Under the pieces are notes generated by a model that had not been told where the DNA came from, did not search any database, and saw only the letters and a program-made list of their open reading frames with translations. Below are positions 3,409 to 29,173 of a stretch of 35,601 bases of DNA, in pieces. Position 1 is the stretch's first letter. Every line of letters starts with the position of its first letter. Both the position numbers and the translations under genes were made by a program. The stretch is from Acidiferrobacterales bacterium (lineage in GTDB: Bacteria > Pseudomonadota > Gammaproteobacteria > Acidiferrobacterales > JAJDNE01): the NCBI GenBank assembly GCA_022340825.1, contig JAJDNE010000042.1, positions 1-35,601 of the forward strand, given 5' to 3'.

Positions 3409-3557
3409 CCCCCAGAAGGCTTCCGTGCAATTGCTGCATCGACTAAATACAGGAAGACGGAAAGAGATGTGTTCGTTCACATCATTCCGATCGACAAAAA
3501 GCCCGGTTCTTGCGTGCGGATGATTCCAGGCCGAGCGGAAAACAAGGCATATCGGCG

Positions 3558-4418
3558 ATGAAAACAGGATCGACCCTCAGGTATATCTTGTTAACGATGG
3601 TGTTGGCGACTAGTTTGATGCGCCCGGTAATCGCTCAGGATCGGTTGGTACTCGGAATTCACCCTTATAAAACTTCGGACAAACTGATCAAGGCCTATAC
3701 GCCGCTGGCGGAATACCTAACTCGCAAGGTTGGGTTACCCGTACACATAATAATTTCACCGGACTATCAGCAGCATATCGATACCATTGGCAGGGATCAG
3801 TTTGACATTGCCTACATGGGTCCAGCAGCCTACGTCAAGTTGTTCGACAACTACGGTGAAAAACCGCTTCTGGCACGGCAAGCCGTTCACGGGAAACCGA
3901 CGTTTCAGGGCAAGATCATCGTTCCCAGGGATAGTTCAATCAGGGAAATCAGGCAACTTAAGGGGAAGCGTTTTGCCTTTGGTGACCCCAACTCAACGAT
4001 GAGTCATCTTGTGCCACGCTACATGATGCTGTCAGCGGGTGTAACCACAAACAACCTCAAGAGCTTTCAGTTTCTCGGGTCTCACGACAACGTGGCACTG
4101 GCCGTACTGACCGGCGACTTTGATGCAGGCGCCGTAAAAGAGGCCGTTTTCTACAAGCATGAGGCAAGGGGCTTGCGTGCCATTGCGACAACACCAGCAC
4201 TGTCGGAACACCTTTTTATTACCAGCAGCAGACTGGATCCCGCGTTGGTTACACGGTTGCGTCAGGCAATGCTGACGGTAAACCTGGATCCGGATGGCAA
4301 AGTGATCCTGACCAGCATCAAGAGTGGTGTTACGGCCATGGTGCCGGTTGTTAACAGTGACTACGACAATCTTCGGGAAATCTTGCGCTCGCTCAGGAAT
4401 TCCGGGGTGATCAAGTAG
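3558..4418 (+). CDS. PhnD-like periplasmic substrate-binding protein
   Basis: Starting at ATG 3558, the 286-residue product has a signal peptide (Lys2 onward, hydrophobic core, likely cut after PVIA). It is followed by a PhnD/phosphonate-type periplasmic binding fold: LGIHPYKTSDKL, a typical FDIAYMGPAAYV motif, and the GKRFAFGDPNSTMSHLVP segment. Upstream in-frame TTG 3510 would put non-hydrophobic sequence ahead of the signal peptide, so 3558 is preferred even though its ribosome site is weak. No permease or ATPase gene is present. The histidine kinase downstream starts inside this stop codon (TAGTG). A role as extracytoplasmic ligand sensor for that kinase is more likely than transport, but this is inferred. 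The ligand is unknown. Confidence 0.87.
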   Translation: MKTGSTLRYILLTMVLATSLMRPVIAQDRLVLGIHPYKTSDKLIKAYTPLAEYLTRKVGLPVHIIISPDYQQHIDTIGRDQFDIAYMGPAAYVKLFDNYGEKPLLARQAVHGKPTFQGKIIVPRDSSIREIRQLKGKRFAFGDPNSTMSHLVPRYMMLSAGVTTNNLKSFQFLGSHDNVALAVLTGDFDAGAVKEAVFYKHEARGLRAIATTPALSEHLFITSSRLDPALVTRLRQAMLTVNLDPDGKVILTSIKSGVTAMVPVVNSDYDNLREILRSLRNSGVIK

Positions 4419-5644
4419 TGCCAAGTGCTTTTAGCAGAACTCGCCGCTCTGTATTGGCATTCACTCTTGCAATGCTCGGCTTTCTGGTGTTAGCCGATGC
4501 ACTCATCATTACCCAGCAATCACGCGCCATCCATGCAGAAATGCAACATCACACTGACCACGAGGTGGATCTCTTCGCAAAGCTGGTTGCAGACTCGTTA
4601 ACCCGTAACGATTATGCGGCGGTGGAGCAAGCGGCTATTAGCTGGGCCAGCGAACAGGAAAATATCCTGAAACTGAAAATTGTTACCAGCAACGGCTTCG
4701 ATCTGGTGAATTATTCGCGCAGCAAGGATGTCAGAAGTCAAGATTCCTATAAAAGGAAGATCAGCTACGGCGATGATCATTCGATAAAAATTGATATTGT
4801 AAAGGACACAAGCGGCATTAGCAGTACGCTAACCAATCTGGTGATACAACTGGTAATTATTTCTATTATCCTGGTCGCATTGCTCGGTCTTATTATTCAG
4901 CGCATCGCACTTCGCCCGCTGCAGCGCGAAATCAATCTGCACCGGAAAACGGAGGAATCTTTGCGACATTCCATCGTCGAGCTTGAGTCTATGAACTACT
5001 CGCTTTCGCATGATCTGCGCACTCCGCTGCGGGCCATCACTGGATTCAGCCAGACACTGCGGGACGATGCTGGCTCCAGATTGAGCGCGGAAGAGAGGCA
5101 GAGCCTGGAGCGTATCGAGAACGCCGGCAAGAGCATGGCGGAATTGATCGATGACATTCTGGAATTATCCCGGATGTCGAGCGCGAGGATGTCCAGATCA
5201 TCAATCGACGTCACGAAACTGGCCAGGCAGTGCCTGGAAAACCTGCTATCGAAATATCATGCTAACGAGATAGTGTGGGACATAAAGGAAGGTATGACGG
5301 CGAGCGCTGACCGGAGATTTGTCATCGTTCTTCTGGAAAACCTGCTCGATAACGCCATCAAGTACACGACGAGAACAGAATCCCCGGTTATAAAAATTGG
5401 TAGCCTGAAAAAGGAAGGTGACACCGTCTTTTACGTCCTGGATAACGGTGCTGGTTTTGATATGAAGTTTGCGGACAAGTTGTTTGAACCTTTCCAGCGG
5501 CTGCATCAGGATCAGGGATACACTGGTACTGGCATTGGCCTCGCAATCGCCACCCGTGTCGTGCAACGACATGGCGGACGAATCTGGGCGGAGTCACAAC
5601 CGGGGATGGGATCGACATTCTATTTTACCCTCCCGAACGAATAG
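4418..5644 (+). CDS. Membrane sensor histidine kinase partnered with the PhnD-like protein
   Basis: The GTG start overlaps the preceding stop by one base, a strong sign of coupled translation. The 408-residue protein has an N-terminal membrane segment (about 12-30), a periplasmic region of about 110 residues, a second membrane segment (about 140-163), a short linker, HisKA with His198 in SHDLRTPLR, and a HATPase domain (ENLLDNAIKYT, DNGAGFD, GTGIGLA). Its kinase core closely resembles that of the large kinase at the start of the cluster, sharing FDMK-ADKLF--FQRLH, so the two probably arose from a common ancestor or share the same response regulator. No response regulator follows directly. The periplasmic loop is where a binding protein could dock. 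Confidence 0.92.
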   Translation: MPSAFSRTRRSVLAFTLAMLGFLVLADALIITQQSRAIHAEMQHHTDHEVDLFAKLVADSLTRNDYAAVEQAAISWASEQENILKLKIVTSNGFDLVNYSRSKDVRSQDSYKRKISYGDDHSIKIDIVKDTSGISSTLTNLVIQLVIISIILVALLGLIIQRIALRPLQREINLHRKTEESLRHSIVELESMNYSLSHDLRTPLRAITGFSQTLRDDAGSRLSAEERQSLERIENAGKSMAELIDDILELSRMSSARMSRSSIDVTKLARQCLENLLSKYHANEIVWDIKEGMTASADRRFVIVLLENLLDNAIKYTTRTESPVIKIGSLKKEGDTVFYVLDNGAGFDMKFADKLFEPFQRLHQDQGYTGTGIGLAIATRVVQRHGGRIWAESQPGMGSTFYFTLPNE

Positions 5645-17481: not shown

Positions 17482-17493
17482 AAGTTACAGGCG

Positions 17494-17520
17494 AAAAAAG
17501 AGCCCGCACTAAGGCGGGCT
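17494..17520 (-). terminator. Intrinsic terminator of the sigma/anti-sigma/DsrE operon
   Basis: Read leftward, a 7-bp stem (AGCCCGC with GCGGGCT, 6-base loop) is followed by C and a run of six Ts (complement of 17494-17499). It lies 44 bases after the DsrE stop. In the rightward direction there is no U-run. Confidence 0.85.
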
Positions 17521-17563: not shown

Positions 17564-18007
17564 TTACGGACGAATGTAAGCAAAGCCCTTCTTCTGCAGG
17601 TGAGCGATTTCAGCAACACCGCTTGGTACCTTGTCTTTGGCTGGATCAAAACCGAACAGCTTGTTTTCGTCCAGTTTCTTGCCGCGGATGGTGTTGGCAC
17701 ACAGCTGGAATTTAACGCCCTTGTCTTTCAGGGAGATGATGCTGTTCTGCAACTCTAGATCGGTGTTGGCAGCTTCCAGCAGGGTGTAACCCTTGCCGTG
17801 CATGACGACGCGCAGGTCCAGCTTGTCGGCACCAACAGCCTTGATGTGATTGTTGATGTTACGCAGCATGCCTTTCTGGCGCTTCGGGTTGTCATAGTTC
17901 AGGTGATAAACAACTTTCTGCTTGCCATAACCGCCGGCAACGGCGCTGGTGGCGCTGAAACCTAAGGTGAGCATAGCAGCAACTGCGATAGCGATAACTT
18001 TCTTCAT
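17564..18007 (-). CDS. Secreted DsrE-family protein
   Basis: The 147-residue protein starts with a clear signal peptide (MKK, hydrophobic core, cleavage near SAVA-GG, residue 24). The mature part is a DsrE/DsrF-like domain with one conserved cysteine, Cys103 in LCANTI, and an ending SGVAEIAHLQKKGFAYI. The same Cys-x-Asn-Thr-Ile and Val-Ala-x-Ile---Gln--Gly-x-Ala-Tyr-Ile patterns occur in the membrane anti-sigma protein upstream, so the two are paralogues. DsrE relatives bind or transfer sulfur through a cysteine in the cytoplasm; a periplasmic form suggests handling of a sulfur or redox signal outside the membrane. The start has AGGAG before it. Confidence 0.9.
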   Translation of the reverse strand: MKKVIAIAVAAMLTLGFSATSAVAGGYGKQKVVYHLNYDNPKRQKGMLRNINNHIKAVGADKLDLRVVMHGKGYTLLEAANTDLELQNSIISLKDKGVKFQLCANTIRGKKLDENKLFGFDPAKDKVPSGVAEIAHLQKKGFAYIRP

Positions 18008-18044
18008 AACTCGTAGCTCCTGTAAACGATTGTAGTAATAATGT

Positions 18045-18059
18045 GTGGTTGAAAACCAC
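18045..18059 (-). other. Short hairpin between the anti-sigma and DsrE genes
   Basis: GTGGTT and AACCAC form a 6-bp stem with a 3-base loop, overlapping the end of the anti-sigma stop codon. There is no U-run, so it is unlikely to terminate. It could protect the downstream DsrE message after processing, letting the two proteins accumulate at different levels. Confidence 0.35.
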
Positions 18060-18808
18060 TAGACCTGGATATAGGCCCAGCCCTCTTGTTGGCGCCGCAT
18101 GATCTGCGCCACCCCAGAGTCGATCACGACAATACCAGGCAGCAGGCTTGCGGTAATACCGCGCTCGCTTTTCAGTCTGTCGATTGTATTTTGACAAGTA
18201 ACGAAAGTCAGATTTTTATATTTCTTCTGTAGCGCGAGGATCCGATCAGGGTACGGCGAGGTATCCTTGCGAAGCAAATCAATGCCACCTCCGTTGGTGA
18301 TCATTTCTACGCGCGCCTTTTGGCCGGTTCGCTTGTAAAAAGCCAACACACCTTCAAGTTCGTCCAGGGCCTCGTGCACCTTTTCCGGGTCGCGGCTGTT
18401 CAGGTGAAACAGAACCTTGGTGCTATTGTCGGCGGCAACCGTCGTGGCGGTCGTACGTTCACGCGCGTTGCTGGCGCTGTAGATACTACCATCGCTTTGT
18501 ACCGGACCGATTTGCCATCCGATCAATACGCCGACGGCCAGCAGAATGCTCGCGGCGATACCGGTGATCCAGTGGCGCGAACCGGACCCATTCGGACCGC
18601 TGTTATCACTCGAGCCACCAGGTGAGGCGGGTAGTCCCTGATATGCAAGCTGGACCAGGTCCTTGCAACTACGCAATTCGCATACGCCTTTTTTTATATC
18701 ATCGTCTTTCGTAAGTGAGACGTAGAGCTGTTCCTTCTCTTCAGTCGTCAACTGACCGTCGACAAAGGCGTTTAGCATCTCGTCTGAAACCCTGATTTTG
18801 TCGTTCAT
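18059..18808 (-). CDS. Transmembrane anti-sigma factor with periplasmic DsrE-like domain
   Basis: The 249-residue protein has an anti-sigma-like N-terminus (residues 1-60; LNAFVDGQLTTEEKEQL is typical), a Gly/Ser-rich linker (62-78), one membrane segment (about 79-101) and a C-terminal DsrE-like domain (about 125-249) that would face the periplasm. Its Cys205 in TCQNTI aligns with Cys103 of the secreted paralogue, and the two C-termini are clearly alike. The His-x3-Cys-x2-Cys zinc motif of ZAS anti-sigmas is absent, although Cys43 and Cys48 are present. The start overlaps the sigma gene stop (ATGA), as usual for such pairs. Reading: the DsrE domain is the sensor that controls sigma release. 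This is inferred. Confidence 0.85.
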   Translation of the reverse strand: MNDKIRVSDEMLNAFVDGQLTTEEKEQLYVSLTKDDDIKKGVCELRSCKDLVQLAYQGLPASPGGSSDNSGPNGSGSRHWITGIAASILLAVGVLIGWQIGPVQSDGSIYSASNARERTTATTVAADNSTKVLFHLNSRDPEKVHEALDELEGVLAFYKRTGQKARVEMITNGGGIDLLRKDTSPYPDRILALQKKYKNLTFVTCQNTIDRLKSERGITASLLPGIVVIDSGVAQIMRRQQEGWAYIQV

Positions 18809-19359
18809 TTCACTCTCCGGAGGATCGCTTCCTGCAGGCCGGGTTGTTTTTCAAATTCGGTGAGCAGGCGCTCTTTCAGCGCATTACGGGCCCGACACAA
18901 ACGGCTCATCACCGTCCCGATCGGAATATCGAGGATGTTGGACACCTCGTTGTAACTGAACCCCTCCAGATCCACCAGCGTCATGACTTGTCGTTGACCT
19001 TCAGCCAGTGTCGCCACTGACCGACGGACTTTGTCGACAATTTGCAGTTGATCGGTTTCCGTTTCCGGGGTGGTATCGTCCACCAGCGTAATGTTATCGA
19101 TGTCTTCGGTTTCCCGGTTCCGGCGAAAATGGTCGTTATAACAATTGGACAGAATGCTGAAGAGCCAGGCCTGGCCGGCTTTCGGGTCACGCAATTGATC
19201 GGATTTGCGATAGGCCTTCAGTAGCGTTTCCTGAACCAGATCATCCGCCAGTGCAGCGTTATGGCACCAGGAAAAGGCAACCCGATAAAGGCGGGCGCGG
19301 GACTGTTCCAGTTGATTCCTGGAATCCCGATTACGGCGAAAAATATCGAATAATTCCAT
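18805..19359 (-). CDS. ECF-type RNA polymerase sigma factor
   Basis: The 184-residue protein has sigma-70 region 2 (about 20-85; LADDLVQETLLKAY and an AWLFSILSNCYNDHFRR segment) and region 4 (about 110-170; LEGFSYNEVSNIL, IPIGTVMSRLCRARNAL), with no region 3, as in ECF factors. It is the first gene of a three-gene leftward operon and overlaps the anti-sigma gene by four bases. A candidate ECF promoter lies 53-80 bases upstream, so it probably activates its own operon. The regulon outside the window is unknown. Confidence 0.95.
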   Translation of the reverse strand: MELFDIFRRNRDSRNQLEQSRARLYRVAFSWCHNAALADDLVQETLLKAYRKSDQLRDPKAGQAWLFSILSNCYNDHFRRNRETEDIDNITLVDDTTPETETDQLQIVDKVRRSVATLAEGQRQVMTLVDLEGFSYNEVSNILDIPIGTVMSRLCRARNALKERLLTEFEKQPGLQEAILRRVK

Positions 19360-19411: not shown

Positions 19412-19439
19412 TAGACGCCGGCCTACTGGCTTTTATTCC
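19412..19439 (-). promoter_or_regulatory. Candidate ECF promoter of the sigma operon
   Basis: On the minus strand, GGAATAA (complement of 19433-19439), a 15-base spacer and CGTCTA (complement of 19412-19417) match the general ECF pattern of a GGAA-type -35 and a CGTC-type -10. The expected start is about 45 bases before the sigma ATG. A 10-bp inverted repeat (19420-19429 with 19439-19448, one G-T type mismatch) overlaps the spacer and -35, as an operator might. Confidence 0.45.
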
Positions 19440-27917: not shown

Positions 27918-28060
27918 TTCATGCTCCAAGAGATAGGTGGACGATTATAGGTAGGAAGAATGGGGAATGCATCTGTTGGCTGCCGCGTCTTTAACAAAGG
28001 CGCGCTATTTGCCGGGCGGTAAATCGGGTGCAGTATTCGTTGAACTAACAGGAGTAGAAA

Positions 28061-28579
28061 TTGAAGACCCTGACAAAAACGGCAATAACGCTGTTGTTAC
28101 TGTTGCCTCTGGCATCGTTTGCCGCACCGGATCTGCTGCTGAAGACGGTGGACGGTGAGCAGCAGAACGTTTCCGAGTACATTGGCAAGGGCAAGTGGAC
28201 CGTGGTCGCCATCTGGGCACACGACTGCCACATCTGCAACGACGAAATCCCGGCCATGACGTTCTTCCATGATGCCCACAAGGATAAGGACGCCATTGTC
28301 CTGGGTGTTTCCATTGATGGCTGGAACAAGCGCCGGGAGGCAAGACGTTTTATTGAAACGCATGCGCTCAATTTCCCCAACCTGATTGCCGAACCGCGCC
28401 AGGACGTTATCGGGAAATTTGGTGGCGGCGAGTTTTATGGAACCCCGACATTTTATGTGTACTCTCCCGAGGGTGAATTGCTGGCGCGCCAAATCGGCCC
28501 TGTTTCGGCAGAAGAGATTGAAAAATTCATGCAAAGCGTTGATCGGGCAAAACGAGAGAAATCAGACGCGAACGGGTAA
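28061..28579 (+). CDS. Periplasmic TlpA/ResA-like thioredoxin
   Basis: The gene starts at TTG 28061, with AGGAG 7 bases before it. The 172-residue product has a signal peptide (about 1-21, ending SFA-AP) and a thioredoxin fold with active site CHIC (Cys56, Cys59) and cis-Pro in YGTPTFYVY. The CxxC residues and AhpC/TSA-like layout (VSIDGWNKRREA) fit TlpA/ResA-type reductants of periplasmic thiols, for instance in cytochrome maturation. It is the first of five closely spaced rightward genes. Its partner is unknown. Confidence 0.88.
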   Translation: MKTLTKTAITLLLLLPLASFAAPDLLLKTVDGEQQNVSEYIGKGKWTVVAIWAHDCHICNDEIPAMTFFHDAHKDKDAIVLGVSIDGWNKRREARRFIETHALNFPNLIAEPRQDVIGKFGGGEFYGTPTFYVYSPEGELLARQIGPVSAEEIEKFMQSVDRAKREKSDANG

Positions 28580-28621
28580 AATGGGATCGAGTTTTGACAC
28601 GGTGCTTCCGGAGTAATGGAT

Positions 28622-29173
28622 ATGAACAAGCTGCTGTTTACGTTGATGATCAGCCTGGCGATGCTGGCCGGGCCTGCTGCCCATGCTGCCGCCGAAACCC
28701 GAGATCCGGGGGATCATTTCTTCAGTCAGAGTTTTGGTGACTTGCGGGAGGAGCTGGCGACGGCGCGCAAACAGGGCAAGAAAGGCCTGTTCATCATGTT
28801 TCATAACACCGAATGCCCCTGGTGCGAGAAGATGCGGACCAATGTCCTCAACCAGGTATCCGTTCAGGATTACTTTCGCCAGTATTTCATTAATCTGCAG
28901 ATCGATACCGAGGGTAGCGAGATGGTTACCGATTTCGATGGAAAGCAAATGATGGAGAAAGACTTTGCGCTGAAGCACAACCGGGTGCGCGCAACACCGG
29001 TATTCATTTATCTTGATACCAATGGCCAGCAGCTGGTCAAATACACCGGTGCCACGCGGGATGTTCAGGAGTTTATGTGGCTGGGCGAATTTATCGTCGG
29101 TGAGCACTACAAGAACAAACGTTTTGCGATATACAAACGCGAGCGTCAACAGGCAGCAGGAAGTCAATCCTGA
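28622..29173 (+). CDS. Periplasmic thioredoxin-like protein (SoxW-like)
   Basis: ATG 28622 is favoured over ATG 28616 because GGAG lies 8 bases before it, rather than 2. The 183-residue product has a signal peptide ending AHAAA and a thioredoxin-like domain with CPWC (Cys65, Cys68), the TECPWCEKMR layout of the SoxW/thioredoxin_2 group, and a cis-Pro in RATPVFIYL. SoxW supports sulfur oxidation in some bacteria, but no sox genes are visible here. It follows the TlpA-like gene by 42 bases. Confidence 0.87.
   Translation: MNKLLFTLMISLAMLAGPAAHAAAETRDPGDHFFSQSFGDLREELATARKQGKKGLFIMFHNTECPWCEKMRTNVLNQVSVQDYFRQYFINLQIDTEGSEMVTDFDGKQMMEKDFALKHNRVRATPVFIYLDTNGQQLVKYTGATRDVQEFMWLGEFIVGEHYKNKRFAIYKRERQQAAGSQS

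Follow-up and report, generated by a model that had tools for sequence, protein, structure and literature searches.

The reverse-strand locus 17564-19359 encodes an ECF sigma factor, an anti-sigma factor that carries one membrane helix and a periplasmic DsrE-fold domain, and a secreted DsrE paralogue. The sigma and anti-sigma factors probably form a switch of ECF26-like type that controls thiosulfate oxidation by Sox, in which the anti-sigma factor would sense a periplasmic sulfur species through Cys205. Regulation of the sox genes by the pair, as predicted from the promoter motif, the operon structure, and co-occurrence, is very likely. The predicted architecture and location, the lone invariant cysteine, the autoregulatory promoter, the sox regulon, and the co-occurrence with Sox are well supported by sequence. 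A membrane switch with a DsrE-type outer domain, present in many sulfur-oxidizing bacteria, is apparently new to the literature. Sox is a main route of thiosulfate oxidation, which is important in the sulfur cycle. To our knowledge, little is known about how sulfur-oxidizing Gammaproteobacteria sense the substrate and switch the sox genes.

The window is the whole stretch of 35,601 nucleotides that was analysed, from an Acidiferrobacterales bacterium. Its relevant features are the following.

18805-19359 (-): ECF sigma factor, 184 aa, with Sigma70_r2 and r4_2
18059-18808 (-): anti-sigma factor, 249 aa, with a cytoplasmic helical domain, a transmembrane helix, and a periplasmic DsrE-fold domain
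18638-18808 (-): cytoplasmic anti-sigma domain, residues 1-57, with helices at 9-16, 22-34, and 36-57
18515-18571 (-): membrane helix, anti-sigma residues 80-98, from hydropathy
18062-18427 (-): periplasmic DsrE-fold domain, anti-sigma residues 128-249, from the model, the PDB match 1l1s, and BLASTP
18194-18196 (-): Cys205 codon of the anti-sigma factor, invariant in 71/71 distinct relatives
17564-18007 (-): secreted DsrE paralogue, 147 aa, with the signal peptide at about residues 1-24
17699-17701 (-): Cys103 codon, the sole cysteine of the secreted DsrE
19414-19439 (-): ECF promoter GGAATAA-N15-CGTC, conserved across relatives
17491-17520 (-): intrinsic terminator 3' of the secreted DsrE gene, AGCCCGCCTTAGTGCGGGCT CTTTTTT
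27964-27989 (+): weak candidate site GGAATGC-N15-CGTC, second-best in the window

The three genes run leftward. The sigma and anti-sigma genes share four bases (ATGA, 18805-18808), and a gap of 51 bases (18008-18058) separates the anti-sigma gene from that of the secreted DsrE, exactly as an earlier sequence-only reading had it. The sigma factor matches PF04542 and PF08281 above cut-off and, being small (184 aa) with regions 2 and 4 only, belongs to the ECF group. The neighbouring purM, purN, Nudix, and desaturase genes were rejected as functional partners. They differ in other lineages while sigma and anti-sigma remain paired, indicating ordinary synteny within the order.

The anti-sigma factor and its DsrE-fold domain

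Judged by its sequence features, the anti-sigma factor fits the membrane class of ECF anti-sigma factors: the gene adjoins the sigma gene, and the protein has a putative helical sigma-binding domain and one transmembrane segment. In accordance with the single helix proposed before, the 19-residue hydropathy at residues 80-98 is 2.04. The cytoplasmic part lacks the HxxxCxxC zinc motif in all 71 anti-sigma relatives, and zf-HC2 matches only below cut-off.

The C-terminus of the anti-sigma factor scores 16.5 bits against PF02635 in Pfam, under the cut-off of 22.7, and the C-termini of the other family members scanned likewise fall below it. Its assignment to DsrE is therefore based on comparisons of profiles, sequence pairs, and structures. 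The secreted DsrE scores 36.6 bits against the same model and has both the fold and the cysteine. In BLASTP between the window proteins, the two share 26% identity over 131 columns (E = 1e-9), and a search of the window's own genome with the secreted DsrE returns the anti-sigma factor as the best relative (E = 6e-7), consistent with the paralogy first noticed from shared motifs. In AlphaFold2 models built from shallow alignments of six sequences, anti-sigma residues 128-249 adopt the DsrE topology (block pLDDT 81-94), the same fold as in the secreted protein. The top Foldseek match for both models is the DsrE-family structure 1l1s (TM-score by target 0.91), further matches in the family are 2pd2, 2qs7, 3mc3, and 2hy5, and a six-sequence profile finds 1l1s at 3e-28. 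The nearest solved relatives are 1l1s (MTH1491) and 2pd2 (ST0148). With a DsrE fold and a conserved active-site cysteine, the C-terminal domain is a member of the superfamily. The outer domain postulated by the sequence-only reading is thus recovered by profile and structure, though not by the Pfam cut-off.

If the protein is oriented N-in, as anti-sigma factors usually are, the membrane helix would place the DsrE domain in the periplasm. Cys205, the cysteine of the motif singled out earlier, is the only cysteine in the periplasmic part of 71/71 distinct anti-sigma proteins. Trp244 is likewise invariant among them. One cysteine per domain would rule out an intramolecular disulfide and would favour either an adduct or a disulfide between molecules. 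On balance, we favour Cys205 as the sulfur sensor.

DsrE/DsrF/TusBCD and DsrE3A (PF02635; PMC4175335) have the same fold and the same position of the active cysteine. The characterised DsrE-type proteins are cytoplasmic carriers or enzymes, whereas at this locus one is a secreted protein and the other is part of a membrane anti-sigma factor. The generalisation that DsrE proteins act in the cytoplasm, from which the sequence-only reading had started, fails for this secreted subfamily. Cytoplasmic DsrE3A of Metallosphaera reacts with tetrathionate only, not with thiosulfate or polysulfide, to form a Cys-S-thiosulfonate that is handed to TusA (PMC4175335), which provides a precedent for the proposed chemistry at Cys205, while the restriction to tetrathionate weighs against the proposal. 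The suspicion that anti-sigma factors with such a sensor are an undescribed class agrees with our search of the open-access literature, where no description of a DsrE-type anti-sigma class was found.

In locus L040 and its relatives in family f4, the place of the secreted DsrE gene is taken by a gene for a lactonase/NHL beta-propeller (L040:5333-6457, minus strand), which overlaps the anti-sigma gene at its end.

Distribution and co-occurrence with SoxB

The anti-sigma/DsrE fusion is matched in 53/60 related genomes, and in full length it is present in 66 of the 369 sampled Gammaproteobacteria, in 41 families. Such recurrence throughout the class goes far beyond chance, and the arrangement is no peculiarity of one genome. 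Of the three outcomes that the sequence-only reading had named as fatal to it (no DsrE fold, no paralogy, a single genome), none was observed. In the loci read among relatives, the fusion adjoins a sigma gene. No full-length fusions were found outside Gammaproteobacteria in the phylum sample. In plasmid records the anti-sigma query is matched in its DsrE domain only, with no match covering 80% of the query, and a search of genome contigs yields three loci, one of which is a full relative.

SoxB is encoded in 65/66 fusion genomes, compared with 87/303 others (Fisher p about 2e-28). Counted by family, the figures are 40/41 and 40/142 (p about 8e-17); this collapse limits the effect of kinship on the statistic and is short of a full phylogenetic test.

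Several genomes have two or three sigma/anti-sigma-DsrE pairs, and an apparent tandem of two pairs is seen in two loci (L173, G165:C22; L174, G281:C26).

Promoter motif and predicted regulon

The sigma gene in the window is preceded by the promoter GGAATAAA-N14-CGTC (19439-19414), with the -10 element 54 bp before the ATG. GGAA[TC]-N-CGTC is present upstream of the sigma gene in 38/45 available regions, of which 36 have a 17-nt spacing and 2 a spacing of 16, and its commonest form is again GGAATAAA-N14-CGTC. Where the secreted DsrE gene is divergent, two divergent motif copies are found (L181, L182, L184, L186, L188, and L192), which could serve both transcripts. Because the motif is conserved before both sigma and divergent DsrE genes, positive autoregulation of the sigma operon is likely, with the secreted DsrE itself as a predicted target.

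In 60 related genomes, the exact motif has 182 matches, compared with 29 for a reversed control pattern. At class level, motif and control number 133 and 50 in fusion genomes and 77 and 111 in fusion-negative genomes (counted on G058-G200), so the excess over control is limited to fusion genomes. We examined 60 sites other than autopromoters and read the downstream genes without prior gene choice. Nine encode YeeE/YedE sulfur transporters (PF04143), for which the nearest NCBI models are the thiosulfate transporter TsuA, and six encode YeiH-type transporters (PF03601). Four SoxY, SoxB, and SoxX, all exceeding NCBI equivalog cut-offs, are also found, as are secreted DsrE (three), one porin, and one thioredoxin-like protein. 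At part of the 60 sites a convincing target is missing, and some sites lie inside coding sequence.

In two loci (L211 and L212), the motif, sigma, anti-sigma, soxX, soxY, soxZ, soxA, and soxB form one co-directional run, with DsrE and porin genes divergent from it. In a third (L213), a motif-driven soxXYZAB cluster lies beside a motif-driven sigma/anti-sigma pair. Elsewhere the motif precedes soxX (L165, L214, L215, and L219), soxB (L168, L170, L172, L216, L218, L220, and L221), or soxYZ (L162 and L164). In unselected samples, 9/20 fusion genomes and 2/20 fusion-negative genomes have a sense-strand motif in the 5.5 kb preceding soxB, with none on the antisense strand; about half of the fusion genomes in this sample (n=20) are without an exact motif before soxB. 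The typical distances from soxB are ~2.6 kb, for motifs before soxX, and ~100 bp, for motifs directly before soxB.

The motif upstream of sox could serve another ECF26-like sigma factor, with the pair here controlling only itself and the secreted DsrE. The presence of more than one such pair in some genomes and the motif before sox in two fusion-negative genomes are compatible with this. However, the single run of sigma, anti-sigma, and soxXYZAB in L211 and L212, the adjacent motif-driven units in L213, and the single exact motif of the window's own genome, which lies directly ahead of this sigma gene, make it very unlikely.

The window's own genome, 86% complete, has soxXYZAB on contig C18 and a second soxYZ on C72. 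When it was scanned with a matrix from which the window's own site had been left out, imperfect variants of the motif were found ~120 bp before soxYZ (GGAATAAAATCCCGCGTTTCGCGGTC) and 65 bp before soxB (GGAATATTTTCAGCATTTAACTCATC). A higher-scoring site near YeeE (C18) was discarded, as it falls within the queC coding sequence. In the window, the site at 27964 (+) lies 71 bp before a gene pair encoding a TlpA/AhpC-like and a thioredoxin-like protein (28061-29173), and a relative of the thioredoxin-like protein carries the exact motif in another genome. These own-genome sox sites and the 27964 site are only suggestive as sigma targets.

Many single-cysteine sensors respond to oxidants or metals, and the candidate site at the thioredoxin-like gene pair would suit a general sensor of envelope thiol-redox or metal stress whose link to Sox is secondary. 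Such a sensor is highly improbable, given that SoxB accompanies the fusion in all but one of 66 genomes and that sulfur genes are the strongest among the recurrent targets of the motif.

The window promoter matches the consensus GGAAT/CGTC of ECF26. Alphaproteobacterial ECF26 sigma factors recognise promoters with a -35 GGAAT and a -10 CGTC, and turn on sulfite dehydrogenases in response to sulfite derived from thiosulfate, taurine, or tetrathionate (PMC3511301, PMC6527743). Like the ECF26 pairs S. meliloti RpoE4 and S. novella SigE (PMC3511301, PMC6527743), the locus combines an ECF sigma factor, a membrane anti-sigma factor, and GGAAT/CGTC promoters. The ECF26 pairs of Alpha- and Betaproteobacteria control the oxidation of inorganic sulfur upon induction by thiosulfate or sulfite, a role in common with the one predicted here. 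The common promoter and the common control of sulfur oxidation suggest that the sigma factor works like an ECF26 factor. The two systems also differ. The targets of ECF26 are the sulfite dehydrogenases sorT and sorAB, whereas the predicted targets here are sox genes. The periplasmic part of the ECF26 anti-sigma factor is of the COG5662 type, whereas that of the present protein is of the DsrE type and thus outside the COG5662/sulfite-oxidizing-enzyme definition; in accordance, both alphaproteobacterial plasmid anti-sigma relatives examined lack a DsrE match and a periplasmic cysteine. Finally, no secreted DsrE partner has been described for ECF26 systems.

These comparisons bear on the nature of the signal. 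As in the alphaproteobacterial systems, it could be sulfite, with the DsrE domain sensing sulfite from sulfur oxidation, rather than the substrate, as an S-sulfonate. The promoter consensus is shared with the sulfite-induced RpoE4 and SigE (PMC6527743, PMC3511301), and one cysteine could form an S-sulfonate. Nevertheless, the periplasmic domain of the examined alphaproteobacterial anti-sigma factors is different and without cysteine, and the regulon consists of sox genes and uptake transporters, not sulfite dehydrogenases. Therefore, a substrate signal fits better, and sulfite as the signal is rather unlikely.

ECF control of sox has a parallel in Arcobacter butzleri, where ECF sigma-2 activates soxCDXYZAB (PMC3445524); that system is campylobacterial, whereas the present one is gammaproteobacterial. 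The other sox regulators TspS/TspR, a sigma-54 two-component system of Acidithiobacillia (PMC12194929), and SoxR of Rhodovulum (PMC9230146) are unrelated to the sigma/anti-sigma pair in protein family and mechanism. The sequence-only reading was incomplete: it included neither the ECF promoter conserved before the sigma gene nor the sox regulon, the spread among taxa, or the likeness to ECF26.

Motif copies are also seen beside genes outside these groups. In family f4, an exact copy whose spacer is variable is found at the phosphomannomutase 3' end and runs antisense into the gene, with a secreted DsrE nearby (L088:901-926, plus strand, and L090, L091, L094, L096, L098-L101, L103, and L107); in L088 the copy lies just past the stop codon. 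Another copy is upstream of a gene for a phosphonate-binding (PhnD-like) periplasmic protein (L111:901, plus strand). A PhnD-like protein adjoining a histidine kinase is encoded at 3510-5644 of the window.

Proposed switch and the secreted DsrE paralogue

The following scheme is our inference as to which ligand is sensed, how it reacts covalently, how the signal crosses the membrane, and what the paralogue does. At rest, the cytoplasmic helices of the anti-sigma factor would keep the sigma factor at the membrane, a sequestration proposed by analogy with the family. Through Cys205, the periplasmic DsrE domain would sense a sulfur species that is reduced or partly oxidized (thiosulfate, tetrathionate, polysulfide, or sulfite), and the likeliest form of sensing is a covalent adduct such as a persulfide, S-thiosulfonate, or S-sulfonate. 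A conformational change or regulated proteolysis of the anti-sigma factor may then free the sigma factor. From GGAATAAA-N14-CGTC promoters, the freed sigma factor would transcribe its own operon, creating positive feedback with the secreted DsrE as one product. Its further targets would vary among species and comprise soxXYZA, soxB, soxYZ, a porin, and sulfur transporters of the YeeE/TsuA-like and YeiH-like kinds. The secreted DsrE would probably bind the same periplasmic sulfur species, and may feed the sensor or remove sulfur from it.

The secreted DsrE carries a signal peptide assigned by eye (MKKVIAIAVAAMLTLGFSATSAVA), and 31/33 mature relatives have a single cysteine. The secreted DsrE gene adjoins the fusion in 22 of the first 30 loci among relatives and in 17/26 class-wide loci, and is thus not adjacent in about a quarter to a third; several genera without an adjacent paralogue have secreted DsrE genes elsewhere in the genome. 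Across the class the gene is either co-directional downstream or divergent upstream of the pair. The arrangement varies while the partner stays, indicating a linkage beyond ordinary synteny.

A relay of sulfur from the secreted DsrE to the anti-sigma factor is a tentative proposal that we consider less likely than not. In such a relay, the secreted DsrE might load sulfane sulfur or thiosulfate on Cys103 and pass it to Cys205, and the loaded anti-sigma factor might free the sigma factor for transcription of Sox. The earlier suggestion of a sulfur sensor has gained strong indirect support from the predicted sox and transporter regulon and from the co-occurrence with SoxB, but delivery by the paralogue, suggested at the same time, is not established: the predicted regulon includes the paralogue's own gene, which in about a quarter to a third of loci is not a neighbour.

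Alternatively, the secreted DsrE could be the true sensor and the DsrE domain of the anti-sigma factor only its docking site, as for RseB on RseA. The anti-sigma factor would then be switched by the paralogue binding to it or leaving it, and not by a reaction of Cys205. The paralogy and the gene linkage in two arrangements are consistent with docking, and known DsrE-family proteins form oligomers. However, mere docking has no need of the cysteine that is invariant in every sensor domain, and the adjacent paralogue is missing in several genera, though these have secreted DsrE genes elsewhere. We regard docking as unlikely and prefer sensing at Cys205.

A named sensor, one mutable residue (Cys205), and a promoter sequence are now at hand, and the system is carried by the cultured, genome-sequenced species Sulfuricaulis limicola HA5 and Sulfurifustis variabilis skN76. 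With the proposed role, the DsrE fold, known from sulfur carriers, would also serve as a sensor for transcription, and would do so outside the cytoplasm. If the relay is true, covalent sulfur transfer would govern transcription from the periplasm throughout sulfur-oxidizing Gammaproteobacteria.

In many families (L045, L047, L049-L052, and L211-L213), the secreted DsrE gene is followed by a Porin_O_P-like porin gene, the two being divergent from sigma. The motif is found on the porin in L169, L222, and L055, which suggests an outer-membrane channel for a sulfur substrate. The window's own genome encodes a further secreted DsrE-like protein of 197 aa (L056:6997-7590, minus strand, G000:C85). 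Its N-terminal region is longer, it shares the FCQNT cysteine motif, and a relative (L110) has the promoter motif upstream.
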